Below, piece after piece: positions 37,079-45,270 of a stretch of 64,000 bases of DNA; within the stretch, counting starts at the first letter, position 1, and every line of letters starts with the position of its first letter. Under the pieces are notes generated by a model. That model ran no database searches, was not told the DNA's origin, and saw only the letters and a list, made by a program, of their open reading frames with translations. The position numbers and the translations under genes were made by a program. This DNA comes from a bacterium. GTDB taxonomy: Bacteria > Electryoneota > Electryoneia > Electryoneales > Electryoneaceae. Location of the stretch: the NCBI GenBank assembly GCA_020444265.1, contig JAHLLH010000005.1:248001-312000 (forward strand), given 5' to 3'.

Positions 37079-38887
37079 ATGATTCAATGGGGTGAGCCAC
37101 TTTACCTGCTGGCGCTGGTAATCCCGGTGCTGCTGGTTGTGGGAGAGTTGATGTCGAAACGGGCGCGTGACATCCAACGCAGCCGTTTTGCGGCTCTCTC
37201 TCTCTGGCCGAGGCTTGCTCCGGGACGTAGTACTGCGTTGCGTCGAACGAAACGTTATCTCTTAATCACCGCGCTTGTGTTGCTTGCCGTTGGCCTTGCC
37301 AATCCTCGTATCGGGACACGATACGAAGAGGTGACCCGCCAGGGGATCGACATTGTCCTCGCGGTGGATGTCAGCCGCTCGATGGACAGCCAGGACATTC
37401 GCCCCAGTCGCTTGACCAAAACCAAGTATGAGCTCGCTCGATTCATTGAGGGCATGAAAGGCGACCGTGTCGGAATCGTCCCCTTCTCCGGCTCGGCTTA
37501 CCCGCTGTTGCCGTTAACACTGGACTACGCCGCCGCACGGATGTTTCTCGACCTGCTTGGCAGCGACCTGATCCCCTCGCAGGGCACCAATGTGGAAGGG
37601 GCCATCGATGTCGCCCTCGCCATGTTCCCTCAGGATGACGAAGGGTCGCGCAGCCGTGTAATCGTGTTGGTGAGCGATGGTGAGGATCATGAGGGCGGTG
37701 CCCAACGAGCCGCGGAACGTGCTGAAAAGGCGGGAGTTTCCATTTACTCCATCGGCATGGCGCTCGCGAAAGGTGAACCGATTCCAGTTTTTGATGAAGA
37801 GGGGAACCGTACCTCCTGGTTGTTAGATGCCCAGGGTGAAATTGTGACCAGCCGTCTGAACGAGGAGCTCCTGCGCACCATCGCTACGACAACCGGCGGC
37901 AGCTACCGTCGCGCAGACCAGGGCGGCGATGCGTTTCGCCGTCTCTACGGTGAACTCTTCAAGCTCGACAAATCTGAGTTCGAAACCCGGCGCATCACCG
38001 GGTACGAGGACCGTTTCCAACCCATCCTGCTAGCCTCGCTGTTGCTGCTTATTATCCAGTTCTTGCTACCGGACCAGAGACGTCGCAAAAACGGCATCAA
38101 AGTAGCGGGTGCCTTGTTACTGCTTGGAATGCTTGCTTTGCCCATTGCCTCCCTGGCGGAGAATCCGCATGAGTTGGTAAAAGAGGGCAACAAGGCGGTC
38201 ATTGACAAGCAGCTCGATCAAGCTTTGACCCGTTACCTTGAAGCGAAAGCGGCGGTGGATTCCACAAGACCGGAAATTGACTACAACCTCGGCGGAGTGT
38301 ACGCCCGCAAAGGGGACCTGGCTCGCGCTGATTCGCTTTACAATTCGCTGCCGGAAGATGCGAGACGCTCCTTGCGCAGCCGTGCGGCCTACAACCGCGG
38401 TACGGCTTATGCCAATGCCGAGCAATTCGACAAGGCAGTACCGAGCTTCATCGATGCCTTGCGCCTGAATCCGAAGGATCAGGATGCCAAGATGAACCTG
38501 GAGCTGGCGCTGCGGAAAATGCAGGAACAGCAGAATCAGCAGAACCAGGACAACGACGACCAGCAGGACAATCAGGACCAGCAGGACCAGGATCAGCAGC
38601 AACAACAGCAGGGCGATGAAAACCAGGACGAGCAAAACCAGCAGCAGAATCAGGACGGTGAGCAAGACGACGAGCAGCAGGATCAACAACAGAATCCCCA
38701 AGACCAGCAAGACGAGCAGAACCAGGATCAGCAGCAACCGCAACCCCAGCAGACCCAGCAGGAGATGGACAAGGAACTTGCAGAACGTCTGCTCGACCAG
38801 CTCCAGCAGGACGAGAAACAGTTGCTCAAGGAAGTCGTACGGAAACAGATTCCCCAGCAACAGAAAAACTCAGCAAAACCGTGGTAG
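37079..38887 (+). CDS. batB: BatB-BatC fusion: VWA domain plus TPR and Gln-rich tail
   Basis: 602 residues. N-terminal half is BatB: two membrane helices, VWA domain with MIDAS DVSRS and SDGEDHEGG, then a helix near residue 320. A second hydrophobic stretch (~345-360) leads into a TPR region (~363-480; YNRGTAYANAEQFDKAVPSF). Residues ~481-562 are almost only Gln, Asn, Asp and Glu, followed by an amphipathic C-terminal helix (LAERLLDQLQQDEKQLLKE). Separate batB and batC genes are usual; here they are one gene. Confidence 0.9.
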   Translation: MIQWGEPLYLLALVIPVLLVVGELMSKRARDIQRSRFAALSLWPRLAPGRSTALRRTKRYLLITALVLLAVGLANPRIGTRYEEVTRQGIDIVLAVDVSRSMDSQDIRPSRLTKTKYELARFIEGMKGDRVGIVPFSGSAYPLLPLTLDYAAARMFLDLLGSDLIPSQGTNVEGAIDVALAMFPQDDEGSRSRVIVLVSDGEDHEGGAQRAAERAEKAGVSIYSIGMALAKGEPIPVFDEEGNRTSWLLDAQGEIVTSRLNEELLRTIATTTGGSYRRADQGGDAFRRLYGELFKLDKSEFETRRITGYEDRFQPILLASLLLLIIQFLLPDQRRRKNGIKVAGALLLLGMLALPIASLAENPHELVKEGNKAVIDKQLDQALTRYLEAKAAVDSTRPEIDYNLGGVYARKGDLARADSLYNSLPEDARRSLRSRAAYNRGTAYANAEQFDKAVPSFIDALRLNPKDQDAKMNLELALRKMQEQQNQQNQDNDDQQDNQDQQDQDQQQQQQGDENQDEQNQQQNQDGEQDDEQQDQQQNPQDQQDEQNQDQQQPQPQQTQQEMDKELAERLLDQLQQDEKQLLKEVVRKQIPQQQKNSAKPW

Positions 38888-40791
38888 CGATTGTGAAACG
38901 GGCAGGTACATACACGAAGCAATCATCCAGATGGGGACTGGCGCTCCTGCTCCTCCTCTTTCTCGTGTCCCCAAGCCGGGCCGCAGTCGACGAGGTGAAA
39001 GCGGATGTCTCCTCCCGAACCGTGGAAGTAGGCAATACATTTCTCTACCAGGTGACGGTTAGTGGCAGTGGTAACCTGCCGACTCCGACGGTGAATCTGC
39101 CCAGCTCCTTCCAGATCGTCTCAGGTCCGAATTCCAATATCTCGATGCAGTTCATCAACGGCAAGATGAGCTCAACCAGGACCTTGACCTACCGCTTGCG
39201 TGCCATGCGGAAGGGCGATTACACAATCACAGGGCCGACGGTAACCAGCAAAGGGAAGCAGATTACCGGAACAAGCATCACCATCGAGGTAGCCTCCAAC
39301 GGTGCGGCCGGTTCAACCCAGCAGAGTTCCCCCGGCACATCGAGTCCATCGACACGTCAACAGACCACCCCGCCCCCTGCTTCGCGACGGGCTCAAACGC
39401 TGCCATCGATGTTCCTCGAAGCCACCGTTTCAAGTCAGTCGGTCAGCTTTCAGGAACCGTTGACACTGATCTTCACCCTCTATTACCAGGAGGATGTGAA
39501 AACCTTCAATGTGAACCGTCTCGCCTCCACTGAAGGTTTCTGGAGTGAACAATGGCCGGTTCCTGAACGACCCGACATTCGGCAGGAGTACGTTAACGGA
39601 CAGCTTTACAATGCCGCCGATCTCCATCGACTTATTCTTTTCCCAACCAAAACCGGCGAGTTGAAGATTGGCGAGATGGATGTAACCATTGGCTACCGGA
39701 AAGCGCGCCGGAATCAACGGCAAAGCCTGTTTGACAGCTTTTTCAGCGACCCCTTCAGTTCGTCGATTCAGTACGAAGACCTCAAGAGCGATCCAATCAC
39801 CATCAAGGTAGCACCTCTGCCTACAGAGGGCCGTCCAGCAAATTTCGAGAATGTGGTGGGTGACTACCGTATCCGGAGCAGCTTAGACACGGACCAGGTC
39901 CGGACCAACGAGTCGGTTACGTTCACCGTTACCATCTCTGGCGAAGGCAACATCGGATTTATTCCAACACCCGACATAAGCTTCCCCTCTGACCTTGAAG
40001 TGTATGAACCACAGGTAGAAGAAAGCCATCAGCCGAGTAATGGTGTGATCACCGGATCGAAAAGCTTCACCTGGCTGTTGATTCCCAGACGACCCGGGAA
40101 GCAGACGATCCCGGCAGTTTCATTCAGCTACTTTGACCCGAAGACGAAGCAGTACCGGACGCCAAAAGCACCAGCACATACTCTCCAGGTGCAACCGGCG
40201 ACAGGCTGGAGTGGAGTGGATACAGAAAGCAGCGATACACCGTCCGAAGTGGAGACACTGGGGACAGATATCCGTTGGATCCTCCAGGCAGATCATGGCC
40301 TTCGTCGTCACGGACCACCATTGCAGGAACGTCCCCTCTATTGGCTGGCGTATCTCATTCCAGTCGGGGTTGCCGCAGCGGGATTCGGCTTGCGGAAACG
40401 CCAGGATAAACTCCTCAGCCAAACCGGCCTTGTTCGCAGCAGGAAAGCTGCGAAACGTGCTTTAGAAGCGTTGTCTGCGGCTCGAAGCCTTCTTTCCAAA
40501 GGGGAAATCCAGGAGGGCTACACCGGCCTGGCTCGTGGCCTGATTGGCTACATCTCGGATCGAATCGGCATCCCTGTGGGGCAGTTGGACCGTCAACGAT
40601 TGCTTACTGAACTCGGGCAACGGAATGTGTCTGAGAGCGCGGTTCGTGAGTTGGTTGCCGTCCTCGATTTGTGCGATTCGGCACGATTCACTCCGCAGGG
40701 TGCAGAGGCAAATTCTCTCGCAGAATTGATCGAACGAGCGCAACGATGGATTGGGCAGGTGGACCGTTCTCTGGCCCTTGAGCGGAGTTGA
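38881..40791 (+). CDS. batD: BatD: oxygen-tolerance family membrane protein
   Basis: 636 residues. Signal peptide (LALLLLLFLVSP..RAA), several Ig-like beta-sandwich domains (VSGSGNLPTPTVN; VTISGEGNIGFIPTPDI), a Ser/Thr/Pro-rich linker near residues 145-170, a membrane helix (YWLAYLIPVGVAAAGFGL, ~485-502), and a cytoplasmic helical tail. Overlaps the preceding gene by 7 nt; GTG 38881 is a guess and GTG 38893 is possible. Confidence 0.9.
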   Translation: MVAIVKRAGTYTKQSSRWGLALLLLLFLVSPSRAAVDEVKADVSSRTVEVGNTFLYQVTVSGSGNLPTPTVNLPSSFQIVSGPNSNISMQFINGKMSSTRTLTYRLRAMRKGDYTITGPTVTSKGKQITGTSITIEVASNGAAGSTQQSSPGTSSPSTRQQTTPPPASRRAQTLPSMFLEATVSSQSVSFQEPLTLIFTLYYQEDVKTFNVNRLASTEGFWSEQWPVPERPDIRQEYVNGQLYNAADLHRLILFPTKTGELKIGEMDVTIGYRKARRNQRQSLFDSFFSDPFSSSIQYEDLKSDPITIKVAPLPTEGRPANFENVVGDYRIRSSLDTDQVRTNESVTFTVTISGEGNIGFIPTPDISFPSDLEVYEPQVEESHQPSNGVITGSKSFTWLLIPRRPGKQTIPAVSFSYFDPKTKQYRTPKAPAHTLQVQPATGWSGVDTESSDTPSEVETLGTDIRWILQADHGLRRHGPPLQERPLYWLAYLIPVGVAAAGFGLRKRQDKLLSQTGLVRSRKAAKRALEALSAARSLLSKGEIQEGYTGLARGLIGYISDRIGIPVGQLDRQRLLTELGQRNVSESAVRELVAVLDLCDSARFTPQGAEANSLAELIERAQRWIGQVDRSLALERS

Positions 40792-40800
40792 CAGTGAAAC

Positions 40801-40989
40801 GGTGGATAACAGATGTTCCACAAGCGTGTGGATATCCTGTGGATAAGAATCACGCTCATCGGATATTAACACTTCGCTCACTCGTTATTGTTTGTTTATA
40901 CGTCGTTTAAGGAGAATTGTTATAATTCTTCGTTTCGCTTTCAGGTGGGGATAACTTGTGTGAAAAAGAGGTGGATGGAATGTGGATAA
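40801..40989 (+). other. Cluster of DnaA-box-like 9-mers with AT-rich stretch (origin-like)
   Basis: TGTGGATAA, the complement of consensus TTATCCACA, occurs exactly at 40838-40846 and 40981-40989. One-mismatch versions occur at 40801-40809 (GGTGGATAA), 40827-40835 (TGTGGATAT) and 40946-40954 (TGGGGATAA). All five face the same way. Between them lies an AT-rich block (about 40860-40930). This arrangement resembles an oriC or a DnaA-regulated region. Confidence 0.55.
40918..40926 (+). promoter_or_regulatory. Extended -10 promoter for batE
   Basis: TGTTATAAT matches the extended -10 consensus TGnTATAAT exactly; no good -35 hexamer is seen at 17 nt. It would start a transcript about 47 nt before ATG 40980. 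It lies within the DnaA-box cluster, between boxes 3 and 4. Confidence 0.5.
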
Positions 40990-41804
40990 CCGGTAAAGTT
41001 CCTGTGAAAACAAGGGTCTTCGGGGACAGTGCGTCTCTTCGCATTCGCACGCTGTTACCGTATCTCCTTTTGTTTTCCCTGATCACCGCCGGTCCGCTAT
41101 TCGCCTCTCCGATCGATGAGCTCGCTCGCCAGGGCGATGACGCCTATCGTGAAGGGGAGTACCTCACTGCCATCGATGCCTACACACGGGTGCTTTCCTC
41201 GGGTTACACCTCCGGCCCTGTACTGTTCAACCTCGGCAACGCTCACTTCAAAGCAGGTCATCTCGGGTCAGCGATTCTCTTTTATGAACGCGCGCAACGC
41301 GCCATGCCCCACAACAAAGATGTGCGCTACAACCTCGATCTGGCACGTGCGCGAACGGTGGACCGGATCCAACCTCCACCCCGTCTCCCGATCTGGAACC
41401 TGCTCGACTGGGCCCGTGACCTGGTCAACCCTAAAGTGACTGCCATCGCCGCCTGGGTTATAGCCCTTCTCTCTGCGACCAGTTTTGTCCTGATGATGCT
41501 GGTTCGTAAGCCGTTGTTTGCGAAGCTGTTACGTGGCAGTACGATTGGGCTGACGGCGCTCTTCTTGCTCACGATTGCCTTTGTTGGGCTGCGCATTGCC
41601 GCGGATCATCGTGACCCGGGTGCCATTGTGATGACCGATGCGGTTGACGTGCATTCCGCACCGGACCCCACGTCGCTGACTACCTTCACCCTGCATGAGG
41701 GCACCAAAGTGGTGGTTGTCAAGCAACTCTCAGACTGGCGCGAAGTACGTCTTGCCGATGGCCGTCAGGGATGGTTGCCCGCGAGCTCCTGCGAAGTGAT
41801 CTAA
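40980..41804 (+). CDS. batE: BatE: TPR and SH3-like domain membrane protein
   Basis: About 274 residues. Signal/anchor helix (LLPYLLLFSLITAGPLFA), two TPRs (DDAYREGEYLTAIDAYTRVL; LGNAHFKAGHLGSAILFYERA), two membrane helices (~150-205), and a C-terminal bacterial SH3 domain (VHSAPDPTSLTTFTLHEG...GRQGWLPASSCEVI). This is the BatE layout. ATG 40980 has GAGGTGG upstream; GTG 40956 is an alternative. It is separated from batD by 188 bp holding the DnaA-box cluster. Confidence 0.88.
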   Translation: MWITGKVPVKTRVFGDSASLRIRTLLPYLLLFSLITAGPLFASPIDELARQGDDAYREGEYLTAIDAYTRVLSSGYTSGPVLFNLGNAHFKAGHLGSAILFYERAQRAMPHNKDVRYNLDLARARTVDRIQPPPRLPIWNLLDWARDLVNPKVTAIAAWVIALLSATSFVLMMLVRKPLFAKLLRGSTIGLTALFLLTIAFVGLRIAADHRDPGAIVMTDAVDVHSAPDPTSLTTFTLHEGTKVVVVKQLSDWREVRLADGRQGWLPASSCEVI

Positions 41805-42136: not shown

Positions 42137-43780
42137 GTGCACCCGGGGGCAATCCCAACGGAACCTGTGGTCGTGACCGCAAAAACGCGTCTCTCTGCCT
42201 CTTTGCAACGTCTGCTGAAACGCTCCGAGGAAGCTGTCGAGTCTCCCTCGACAGATTGGAGTGTCTGGTTTCATGAACCTCGTGTCAAAAAAGGCTATTT
42301 CCGTCTCCATCGCGGTGGACATGAGACCTATGTCTCCCAGGTACTTGGCGTGCGTGAGGTTGAGGAACAGCTTGTCCTGAAGGCCGATGCTCTACTTCCG
42401 ATGCCCGAAGAAAGCTTCTGGAACGAGCCCGTTACCCTTCATGGCGAGATACGCACATTCGATGCAGGCATCGAGGAGATTGTCACTTTTACAGCCGCAG
42501 TAGGAGACCGTGTTGAATTTGACGGCAAACCTGCGGTGGAATTAACCGATTTGCTCGACTTGAAACGGACCACTCAGGAATACGTGGCAGAACTGAGTGA
42601 TGCCTTCAGCATCGAGCTGGGATTGATCTGGTTCGGCGAATGGATTGAGGTTCATCCCTCCAGCATGACCGTTTCTCGTCTCTTTTTCGACGCAGAACTC
42701 GAAGGATCAATCGGCGAGGACGGCTATGCTGTCCCGAAGGCCTCGCTGCGATTGGAACACGGCTCTCCTGAAATACCAGTCCGGATGACGATTAAGCGAT
42801 TGCGTGGTGGTGGGTTCGAGGGTGTAATCGAAAAGCTCGACAGTCTGGCCCGGCAGAAGGTGACGGCCATGGTCGAAGAGATCTGGCGCATCGCGGCCGG
42901 ATTGAGCCAACGCAAGGTAAAAACGGAACACTCCGATGTCGGGTATCGCAGCACCAGCCACGATGCCCTCGCATCCGCCTTCCAGCCGCATATCGTTCTG
43001 CTGGGGCAGGATGAACGCTGGGCGACCCTGATCTCGCAGAAAGGTGTGCTGCGTCAGGTCGAGGACGACAGTTTGGAAGCCGTCTCGGAAGCGGTTGCTG
43101 AGGCGCGATGTGACCTGATCATCGGCAACCTCGATCAATATGGTGACAAGGCGATCCGTGTCGAACGACTGCTGCGCTCCGTCACCAAATTCCGCGACAT
43201 CCCGCGGATCTGGTTTACCACTGTGCCCCCCGCAGTTGACCTGATCGCAGAGAATGATACCTCTCTCCAAACCGGTGAAAATGGCGAACCGGAAAGCCTC
43301 GATCTCGTTGACTTCGGTGCTTTCGATCTCGTTTCGCGGAAGATGAAAGATTCTGAGATTGACCGACGGATCGTGTGGGCCCTTGGGGGCACGGAGATCG
43401 GAAAGGGAAGCCGTTGCCTGCTTATCAGCCAGGAAGGACGTCTCCGTTATCGAATCGGACTCGCGCTGAGCAAAGCCGGTTTCACATTTACCAGTTTCAA
43501 CCGTCTCGAGGGGCTTGTCCCACTATTGGAGAAACAGCGTCCGAAATGGGTACTCTTGGATGCGGTATCGTTTGAAGTCGAGATGGAAGCCCTGCTGTCC
43601 CGTGCCACCACCTGGGCACATGCAAATAAGGCCGATGTCATTGTCCTTTCGCGTGGTGCGAAAGAGGAACAGATACGCAGCTGGTTGAAGAACGGCGCGA
43701 GCGATATCGTCCTGCTCGACCCCTCGCTTCGCCAGGCAGCATACCGACTCACCATCCGGATGCAAGGAGAGCGTTCATGA
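42137..43780 (+). CDS. Putative PilZ-like protein with two receiver-like domains
   Basis: 547 residues. Residues ~35-130 resemble a YcgR-type N-terminal barrel (LVLKADALLPMPEE...GEIRTF), ~150-265 a PilZ-like barrel (EGSIGEDGY, GGGFEGVIEKLD), ~285-395 and ~425-545 two Rossmann-type receiver-like domains (HIVLLGQDERWATLIS; RCLLISQEGRLRYRIG). The second keeps an Asp at the phosphorylation position (VLLDAVSF). No c-di-GMP RxxxR motif is obvious, so ligand binding is doubtful. GTG start uncertain. The stop codon overlaps the thyX start (ATGA). Confidence 0.5.
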   Translation: MHPGAIPTEPVVVTAKTRLSASLQRLLKRSEEAVESPSTDWSVWFHEPRVKKGYFRLHRGGHETYVSQVLGVREVEEQLVLKADALLPMPEESFWNEPVTLHGEIRTFDAGIEEIVTFTAAVGDRVEFDGKPAVELTDLLDLKRTTQEYVAELSDAFSIELGLIWFGEWIEVHPSSMTVSRLFFDAELEGSIGEDGYAVPKASLRLEHGSPEIPVRMTIKRLRGGGFEGVIEKLDSLARQKVTAMVEEIWRIAAGLSQRKVKTEHSDVGYRSTSHDALASAFQPHIVLLGQDERWATLISQKGVLRQVEDDSLEAVSEAVAEARCDLIIGNLDQYGDKAIRVERLLRSVTKFRDIPRIWFTTVPPAVDLIAENDTSLQTGENGEPESLDLVDFGAFDLVSRKMKDSEIDRRIVWALGGTEIGKGSRCLLISQEGRLRYRIGLALSKAGFTFTSFNRLEGLVPLLEKQRPKWVLLDAVSFEVEMEALLSRATTWAHANKADVIVLSRGAKEEQIRSWLKNGASDIVLLDPSLRQAAYRLTIRMQGERS

Positions 43781-45270
43781 GTGATTCCCTCCCCCTGAAA
43801 GTGACCCTCGCGGGGTTTAACGTGGATCATGATACCCTCACGCAGCTTGAAGCAGCAGCGTATGAGGGCGGGGAGGCTCCCCCACGGGAAGCAATCACTC
43901 CAGAAACCATCTCTGCGGCATACGCACGCATCAGCCGAAACCCGGCGGAAGTCGGGGAGATCCGTGCCAAGGCGCGCTTCGAGGTTGAGAAGGCTCGCCG
44001 TTCCAACTCCAACATCATTTTCGGTCTCGGGCACAGTTCGGTGGCTGAACACGCCGCGTTCAACATCGATGTCGTTGGAATTAGTCGCCTGGCGGTTGAA
44101 GCGGTCGAACGTCATCGTCTCGCCTCGTTTACAGAGAAGAGCCAACGCTATATCAAGCTCGATGGCGACATTGTCGTCCCCCCGGAAATCGTAGACGCCG
44201 GGTTCGAGGAGGAGTTCCACGCCCTGATCCGTCGCCAGAATGAGGGTTATTTCGCCCTCTACCCGAAACTGTTGGACTACTTCATCCCGATCCTGACCGA
44301 CGAGGGCAGCGACCGTGCGGAAAAGGATGCTAAAAGCCGTGCCGCGGAAGACGCACGCTATGTGGTCAGCCTCGCAACCCAGGCGCAGTTCGGGATGACG
44401 GTCAACGCTCGCACCATCGAGGGCATGTTGCGTGATGGCTTCGCCCATCCACTTGTTGAAGTAAAGGCTTACGCGGAACAGTTGAGTATCGTTCTGCACG
44501 GCATCGCCCCTTCGCTGATCAAGTACACCGACGCGACCCAGTACGAAATTGATCAGTTCGAGCGGCAGTGTTACTGGCCCAGCGCGCCATCTGGCTATTC
44601 GGATACGGTCACCCTGCTCGAACACGATCCAGAAGGTGACACTCAGGTCCTGACTGCATTGCTGATCAACAGCAAAGGAAGTAGCTGGGCGCAGGCACGG
44701 GAAACGGTAGAGCGACTCGATAGCGAAGAACGGATCATGCTCGTGCATGAGCTACTGCGCAATGCCCAGCAATGGGATCCGCCACCGCGCGAGTTCGAGC
44801 TGACCAAATTCACGTACGAGATCATCCTTTCTGCTGCCGGGTATGGTCAGCTGAAACGTCACCGGATGGCGACCCAGATTGTGGGGCCGTACGATCCTTC
44901 GCTCGGGTGGACGGTTCCGAAATCGGTCGAGGCAGCGGGCGGCAAGCCGCTGTTTAACGAGATCATGGAAGTCTCCATCGAGTTGGCTGAGAAGATCGCG
45001 AAGGTCTGCCCGCAGGCGGCAGCCTATGCATTGACCAATGCGCACCGTCGCCGTGTCATCTTTCAAGCGAACGGGCGTGAATTGTACCACATCAGCCGTC
45101 TGCGTGAGGACCTTCACGCCCAGTGGGATATCCGTCAACTGGCGGGTCAGATGCTCGTACAAGCCCGTGAGGTGGCTCCCACCCTTCTGGCGATGGCGGT
45201 TGGCAAACATGATTTTTCGAAGAAACGTGATGAGGTGTACGGTGCGGCTGCATCGACAAGTGAAGCTTGA
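43777..45270 (+). CDS. thyX: Tandem-duplicated FAD-dependent thymidylate synthase ThyX
   Basis: 497 residues, about twice the usual ThyX. N-terminal half: GLGHSSVAEHAAFNID and the flavin/dUMP signature ERHRLASFTEKSQRY (111-125). C-terminal half repeats the fold: GYGQLKRHRMATQIV near residue 360 keeps RHR but loses the Ser/Glu/Arg part, while RELYHISRLREDLHAQWDIRQLAGQ keeps the active-site C-terminal helix. Each half probably supplies part of one active site. No thyA gene is visible in the window. Coupled to the PilZ-like gene by a 4-nt overlap. Confidence 0.88.
   Translation: MSDSLPLKVTLAGFNVDHDTLTQLEAAAYEGGEAPPREAITPETISAAYARISRNPAEVGEIRAKARFEVEKARRSNSNIIFGLGHSSVAEHAAFNIDVVGISRLAVEAVERHRLASFTEKSQRYIKLDGDIVVPPEIVDAGFEEEFHALIRRQNEGYFALYPKLLDYFIPILTDEGSDRAEKDAKSRAAEDARYVVSLATQAQFGMTVNARTIEGMLRDGFAHPLVEVKAYAEQLSIVLHGIAPSLIKYTDATQYEIDQFERQCYWPSAPSGYSDTVTLLEHDPEGDTQVLTALLINSKGSSWAQARETVERLDSEERIMLVHELLRNAQQWDPPPREFELTKFTYEIILSAAGYGQLKRHRMATQIVGPYDPSLGWTVPKSVEAAGGKPLFNEIMEVSIELAEKIAKVCPQAAAYALTNAHRRRVIFQANGRELYHISRLREDLHAQWDIRQLAGQMLVQAREVAPTLLAMAVGKHDFSKKRDEVYGAAASTSEA

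Follow-up and report, generated by a model that had tools for sequence, protein, structure and literature searches.

Between batD and batE, a 64-kb stretch of DNA (hereafter the window) carries a group of DnaA boxes around an AT-rich block, raising the question of whether this gap is a replication origin, a control region of batE or something else. A preliminary description of the window had proposed oriC or, alternatively, regulation of batE by DnaA. The genome of the window was designated G000. The window is located on its contig C2, with a length of 327 kb, and dnaA on its contig C11.

DnaA boxes in the batD–batE gap

A box scan of the window found five DnaA boxes on the + strand at 40801-40989, two exact and three with one mismatch, in exact agreement with the coordinates of the preliminary description (Table 1). 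The start-to-start spacings in G000 were 26, 11, 108 and 35 bp. Outside the cluster, the window contained no exact box, and the cluster supplied five of the 11 window boxes at one mismatch or fewer. Boxes 3 and 5 also formed the only pair of exact TGTGGATAA sequences less than 200 bp apart in the whole genome.

Chance expectation was modelled with 200 first-order Markov simulations of the 64-kb window. The maximum was two same-strand boxes per 189 bp, reached in 14 of the 200 runs, compared with five observed. A Poisson estimate yielded ~8e-7 expected clusters of this kind on the 327-kb contig. Across the 897 kb covered on C2 and C11, other clusters of at least three boxes were present only at or beside dnaA, and the batD–batE cluster was the densest same-strand box cluster in the sequence examined. 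Near dnaA, the 3' part of a regulator-like gene contained three boxes in mixed orientation, each with one mismatch and all within 32 bp (C11:108329-108352). The cluster in the batD–batE gap is real and very unlikely to be a chance event; its box density, far above chance and outside oriC, is that of an extra-origin cluster of the DBC type. An accidental origin of the boxes, or their use by an unrelated regulator whose sites resemble DnaA boxes, is extremely improbable, considering the simulations, the retention of the spacing in seven genomes and the identical motif found at dnaA itself.

Table 1. Features in and around the batD–batE gap, in window coordinates
Feature	Position	Strand	Description
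batD	38881..40791	+	636 aa, upstream of the cluster; Pfam BatD PF13584, E=6.9e-43
DnaA box 1, GGTGGATAA	40801..40809	+	One mismatch
DnaA box 2, TGTGGATAT	40827..40835	+	One mismatch; first member of the head-to-tail pair, kept in 7/7 family genomes
DnaA box 3, TGTGGATAA	40838..40846	+	Exact; second pair member, its start 11 bp from that of box 2
AT-rich spacer	40847..40945	+	99 bp, 63% AT; 40-bp peak of 75% AT
Extended -10-like, TGTTATAAT	40918..40926	+	Candidate batE promoter
DnaA box 4, TGGGGATAA	40946..40954	+	One mismatch; found unchanged in 6/7 genomes, at 108-109 bp from box 3
DnaA box 5, TGTGGATAA	40981..40989	+	Exact; over the likely batE start codon (ATG 40980)
batE	40980..41804	+	~274 aa from ATG 40980; Pfam TPR_2 and SH3 matches

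Conservation in the family and the phylum

The family set comprised G000 and six relatives from five other genera, G001 to G006. Alignment showed a box cluster in the batD–batE gap, directly 5' of batE, in all seven genomes and thus in six genera. Conservation in close relatives, which the preliminary description had left to be checked, was thereby confirmed, and the boxes are kept 5' of one and the same gene, as is characteristic of DnaA-controlled promoters. The head-to-tail pair, whose two boxes start 11 bp apart and leave a 2-bp gap, was present in 7/7 genomes. TGGGGATAA followed 108-109 bp past the pair in six genomes and was absent from G003. A box on the batE start codon, reading NTG-TGG-ATA-AC, was detected in G000, G002, G003, G005 and G006 and was missing in G001 and G004. 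It was located 35 bp beyond TGGGGATAA in four genomes, with G003 as a variant. The sequence GGTGRATAA, of the box 1 type, was also present ~24 bp before the pair in G002, G003 and G005. The DnaA proteins of all seven genomes shared the box-recognition signature RDHTTV, so the boxes should bind DnaA.

The pair pattern occurred once per family genome, at batD–batE; only G006 held a second copy, at dnaA. Outside the family, it was found in only one of 32 genomes from the phylum, G024, and the reversed control pattern had no match in 39 genomes. In most genomes examined from the phylum's other families, batD and batE are almost contiguous, with no boxes between them, which indicates that sequence was added exactly there. 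The extra sequence and its boxes are specific to this family.

G024 belongs to another family and contained the pair at two sites. At C13:61262, two exact boxes 11 bp apart were located between mnmG and rsmG, 10.7 kb from dnaA and with the parS-like sequence TGTTTCACGTGAAACA ~130 bp away; this is likely an origin neighbourhood. The second pair, at C2:112297, was located in a non-coding gap of ~800 bp between unrelated genes and is possibly an extra-origin cluster.

Location of the replication origin

The gene dnaA was located at ~105 kb on C11, a different contig from that of the batD–batE site. The order on one strand was gyrB, a short gene, dnaN and dnaA, of which dnaN and dnaA were identified by Pfam. 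The short gene may be dciA, judging from its position and length only. A perfect parS was present 16 kb from dnaA within the arrangement yidC-mnmE-parS-mnmG-rsmG. Here, mnmE and mnmG were identified by Pfam, and the genes that we take to be yidC, rsmG and gyrB were named by reading their sequences. Boxes were present on both sides of dnaA in the family, G004 being without an upstream box at one mismatch.

GC skew at fourfold sites was calculated per gene, corrected for gene strand, for C2, 570 kb of C11 and contig C41 of G005. On C11, the + strand skew changed from -0.035 [-0.063,-0.009] over 40-105 kb to +0.062 [0.047,0.079] past 106 kb. By break-point fit, the best position was 140-142 kb, and the bootstrap 80% ranges began at 105 kb; the change is thus in the vicinity of dnaA, though without a sharp position. 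At the batD–batE site of G000, the skew was -0.045 [-0.067,-0.023] to the left (C2 40-288.8 kb) and -0.035 [-0.064,-0.008] to the right, with no sign change. Three limits apply here: the skew of G000 is weak, the contig continues for only 38 kb beyond the site, and C2 and C11 are unjoined. The site in G005 (C41) also lacked a sign change, with +0.065 and +0.167 on its two sides. The skew magnitude at the site, ~0.03, was similar to that within ~200 kb of dnaA, a hint, though not proof, that the cluster may be origin-proximal. The first part of the contig, C2:1-40000, had a strongly negative skew of about -0.26 to -0.31 compared with ~-0.04 for the remainder.

These data bear on the proposal that the cluster is oriC. 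A bacterial oriC need not adjoin dnaA. The densest same-strand cluster examined is conserved in six genera and surrounds an AT-rich spacer that keeps its length, and the site has the composition of an origin, namely DnaA boxes with adjacent AT-rich DNA. However, the sign change of the skew, parS, the mnmE-mnmG-rsmG genes and the dnaA-dnaN-gyrB genes were all on C11, and boxes flank dnaA in the family; origin genes or parS commonly, but not universally, accompany an origin. The skew analysis suggested in the preliminary description thus points to the vicinity of dnaA and not to batD–batE. DnaA-trio repeats beside a box constitute an unwinding motif (PMC6669920). No run of at least three TA[GA] was present in the batD–batE gap of any of the seven family genomes, a test of low power, with strict trios on the dnaA side in G001 only. 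On skew, gene neighbourhood and trios, oriC at batD–batE was rejected; we regard it as improbable, and the replication origin most likely lies elsewhere, beside dnaA. The site resembles a bipartite oriC at dnaA/dnaN of the Bacillus subtilis type in its DnaA boxes and AT-rich DNA. In G000, however, this layout is found at dnaA on C11, and batD–batE is without a skew break.

A related possibility is a secondary or relic origin, either an ancestral origin that moved here or a site capable of unwinding other than the main start. The arrangement of boxes around an AT-rich spacer is origin-like, and the site arose with the family as extra sequence. Yet neither a skew break nor trios were detected, and the same genomes also kept the boxes beside dnaA, which makes this explanation very unlikely.

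Spacer sequence and neighbouring genes

The AT-rich stretch reported between the third and fourth boxes was present, with 63% AT over 40847-40945 compared with ~44% for the window. Its length was 99-100 bp in six of the seven family genomes. Mean spacer identity among the family genomes was 0.32-0.35 compared with 0.26 for shuffles, which is near random; conservation was weak and scattered. Because spacer identity barely exceeds that of shuffles, it appears to be the boxes and their distances that selection keeps. Fixed distances together with a free-running spacer sequence suggest a protein complex that bridges both sides.

The extended -10 promoter of batE described previously was only partly borne out. 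The sequence TGTTATAAT is present, but it has no -35 and its position is not kept in relatives. No sigma-70 promoter in the spacer passed the consensus scan. Among the family genomes compared, the extended -10 was found in G000 only and no promoter aligned with the boxes was conserved. The idea of a shared spacer promoter was dropped owing to the weak and scattered conservation; because the consensus scan was negative and the position of the -10-like sequence is not conserved, a promoter in the spacer is a candidate only. The site had no Rfam match up to E = 1, and a known RNA element was ruled out on this basis. The IHF consensus at one mismatch or fewer was absent from the site in G000 and G002 and scattered in the other family genomes, with no conserved place.

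Homologues of batE were detected in 30 of 31 genomes. The gene begins at TTG 40956 in the list of open reading frames (40956-41804), although its start is probably ATG 40980, on the last DnaA box. Read in frame, box 5 gives ATG-TGG-ATA-AC, and the residues W-I-T after the likely start come from the box. Downstream of the cluster, batE was the only gene common to all seven family genomes; later genes vary. One of these, at 43777-45267 of the window, encodes a protein of 497 aa that carries two Thy1 (ThyX) stretches and thus a flavin-dependent thymidylate synthase domain in duplicate. The doubled-ThyX gene is also found 3' of batE in G005 and G006. Control of the ThyX-type gene by DnaA was set aside, the gene being absent 3' of batE in G001, G003 and G004. 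Upstream, 37079-38884 encodes a 602-aa protein with VWA and TPR domains, a BatB-BatC-like fusion. The matching region of G003 comprises two open reading frames of 345 and 266 aa.

Possible control of batE and binding of DnaA

The batD–batE site may be a lineage-specific extra-origin DnaA-binding cluster that controls batE transcription and also binds some DnaA, an interpretation to which we give about an even chance. DnaA would load first on the left head-to-tail pair, where the 2-bp gap should favour cooperative binding. Contacts would also be made with the weaker TGGGGATAA, at a distance of ~108 bp, and with the batE start-codon box in genomes that have one, so that a nucleoprotein complex could form across the AT-rich spacer. 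Such a complex would control transcription into batE, whether this starts at a promoter within the spacer or reads through from batD and is blocked by the complex. The output of batE would then follow DnaA availability, and the cluster would also bind a few DnaA molecules.

Known DnaA-controlled promoters include the dnaA promoter and that of B. subtilis sda. The cluster is similar to them in having boxes directly 5' of one conserved gene, one of which lies over the start. It differs in that its promoter is a candidate and in its neighbour, batE, a TPR-SH3 gene of the Bat stress genes. To our knowledge, batE is not a known DnaA target.

The second interpretation is a datA- or DBC-like locus that sequesters DnaA or promotes its ATP hydrolysis and so prevents untimely initiation, its adjacency to batE being incidental. 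This is possible, though we hold it to be rather unlikely. The linkage to batE by itself fits both control of batE and a titration site that merely happens to be located there, and the two functions are mutually compatible. The geometry is fixed without a conserved promoter, as would suit titration, and other clusters in C2 and C11 were confined to dnaA and its surroundings. Searches with PF00308 found a single protein per genome, DnaA, and no Hda paralogue in the seven family genomes, whose assemblies are incomplete; another brake on DnaA could therefore be needed. In Escherichia coli, DnaA boxes are enriched near oriC, which aids titration (PMC12371093), and the skew magnitude suggests a possibly origin-proximal site here too, although the cluster and dnaA are on separate, unjoined contigs. 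There is a precedent in B. subtilis, in which joint removal of six extra-origin DnaA-box clusters causes early initiation (PMC5295017). As in these DBCs (Okumura 2012, described in PMC5295017), a number of DnaA boxes lie close together outside oriC at the batD–batE site. In contrast, the batE-linked cluster is single in the sequence examined and has a fixed internal spacing.

With E. coli datA, the site shares several features of layout. It is non-coding, away from oriC and has high- and low-affinity boxes around a spacer, and upstream transcription may read through it. It differs in its gene neighbourhood and in the missing conserved IHF-like site. E. coli datA requires an IHF site between its boxes (PMC10950094), and no such site was found between the boxes in G000 or G002, nor one conserved in place. 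An IHF-bent layout of the datA type was ruled out accordingly. The start-codon box in five of seven genomes also fits gene control better than titration. Because batE is the sole conserved downstream gene and a box covers its start in five of the seven genomes, control of batE was ranked first and titration second.

Both functions could be combined in a family-specific switch, in which a fixed-geometry DnaA complex (the pair, ~108 bp, TGGGGATAA and the start-codon box) would meter free DnaA and make the output of a Bat stress gene follow the replication cycle. It would thereby replace Hda, which the family seems not to have. We consider this combination speculative and unlikely.

Implications

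The batD–batE cluster is very probably not the origin and would join the known extra-origin DnaA-box clusters, among which its fixed geometry and its neighbour gene are unusual. The site also serves as a warning that, when an assembly is fragmented, an origin should not be called from a strong box cluster and an AT-rich block alone. E. coli and B. subtilis are the main sources of detailed knowledge on DnaA control outside the origin. The batD–batE cluster, conserved with fixed geometry in a family that is uncultured and yielded no Hda paralogue, provides a compact and testable example of the ways in which DnaA might be metered, or a stress gene linked to the replication cycle, in other bacteria.
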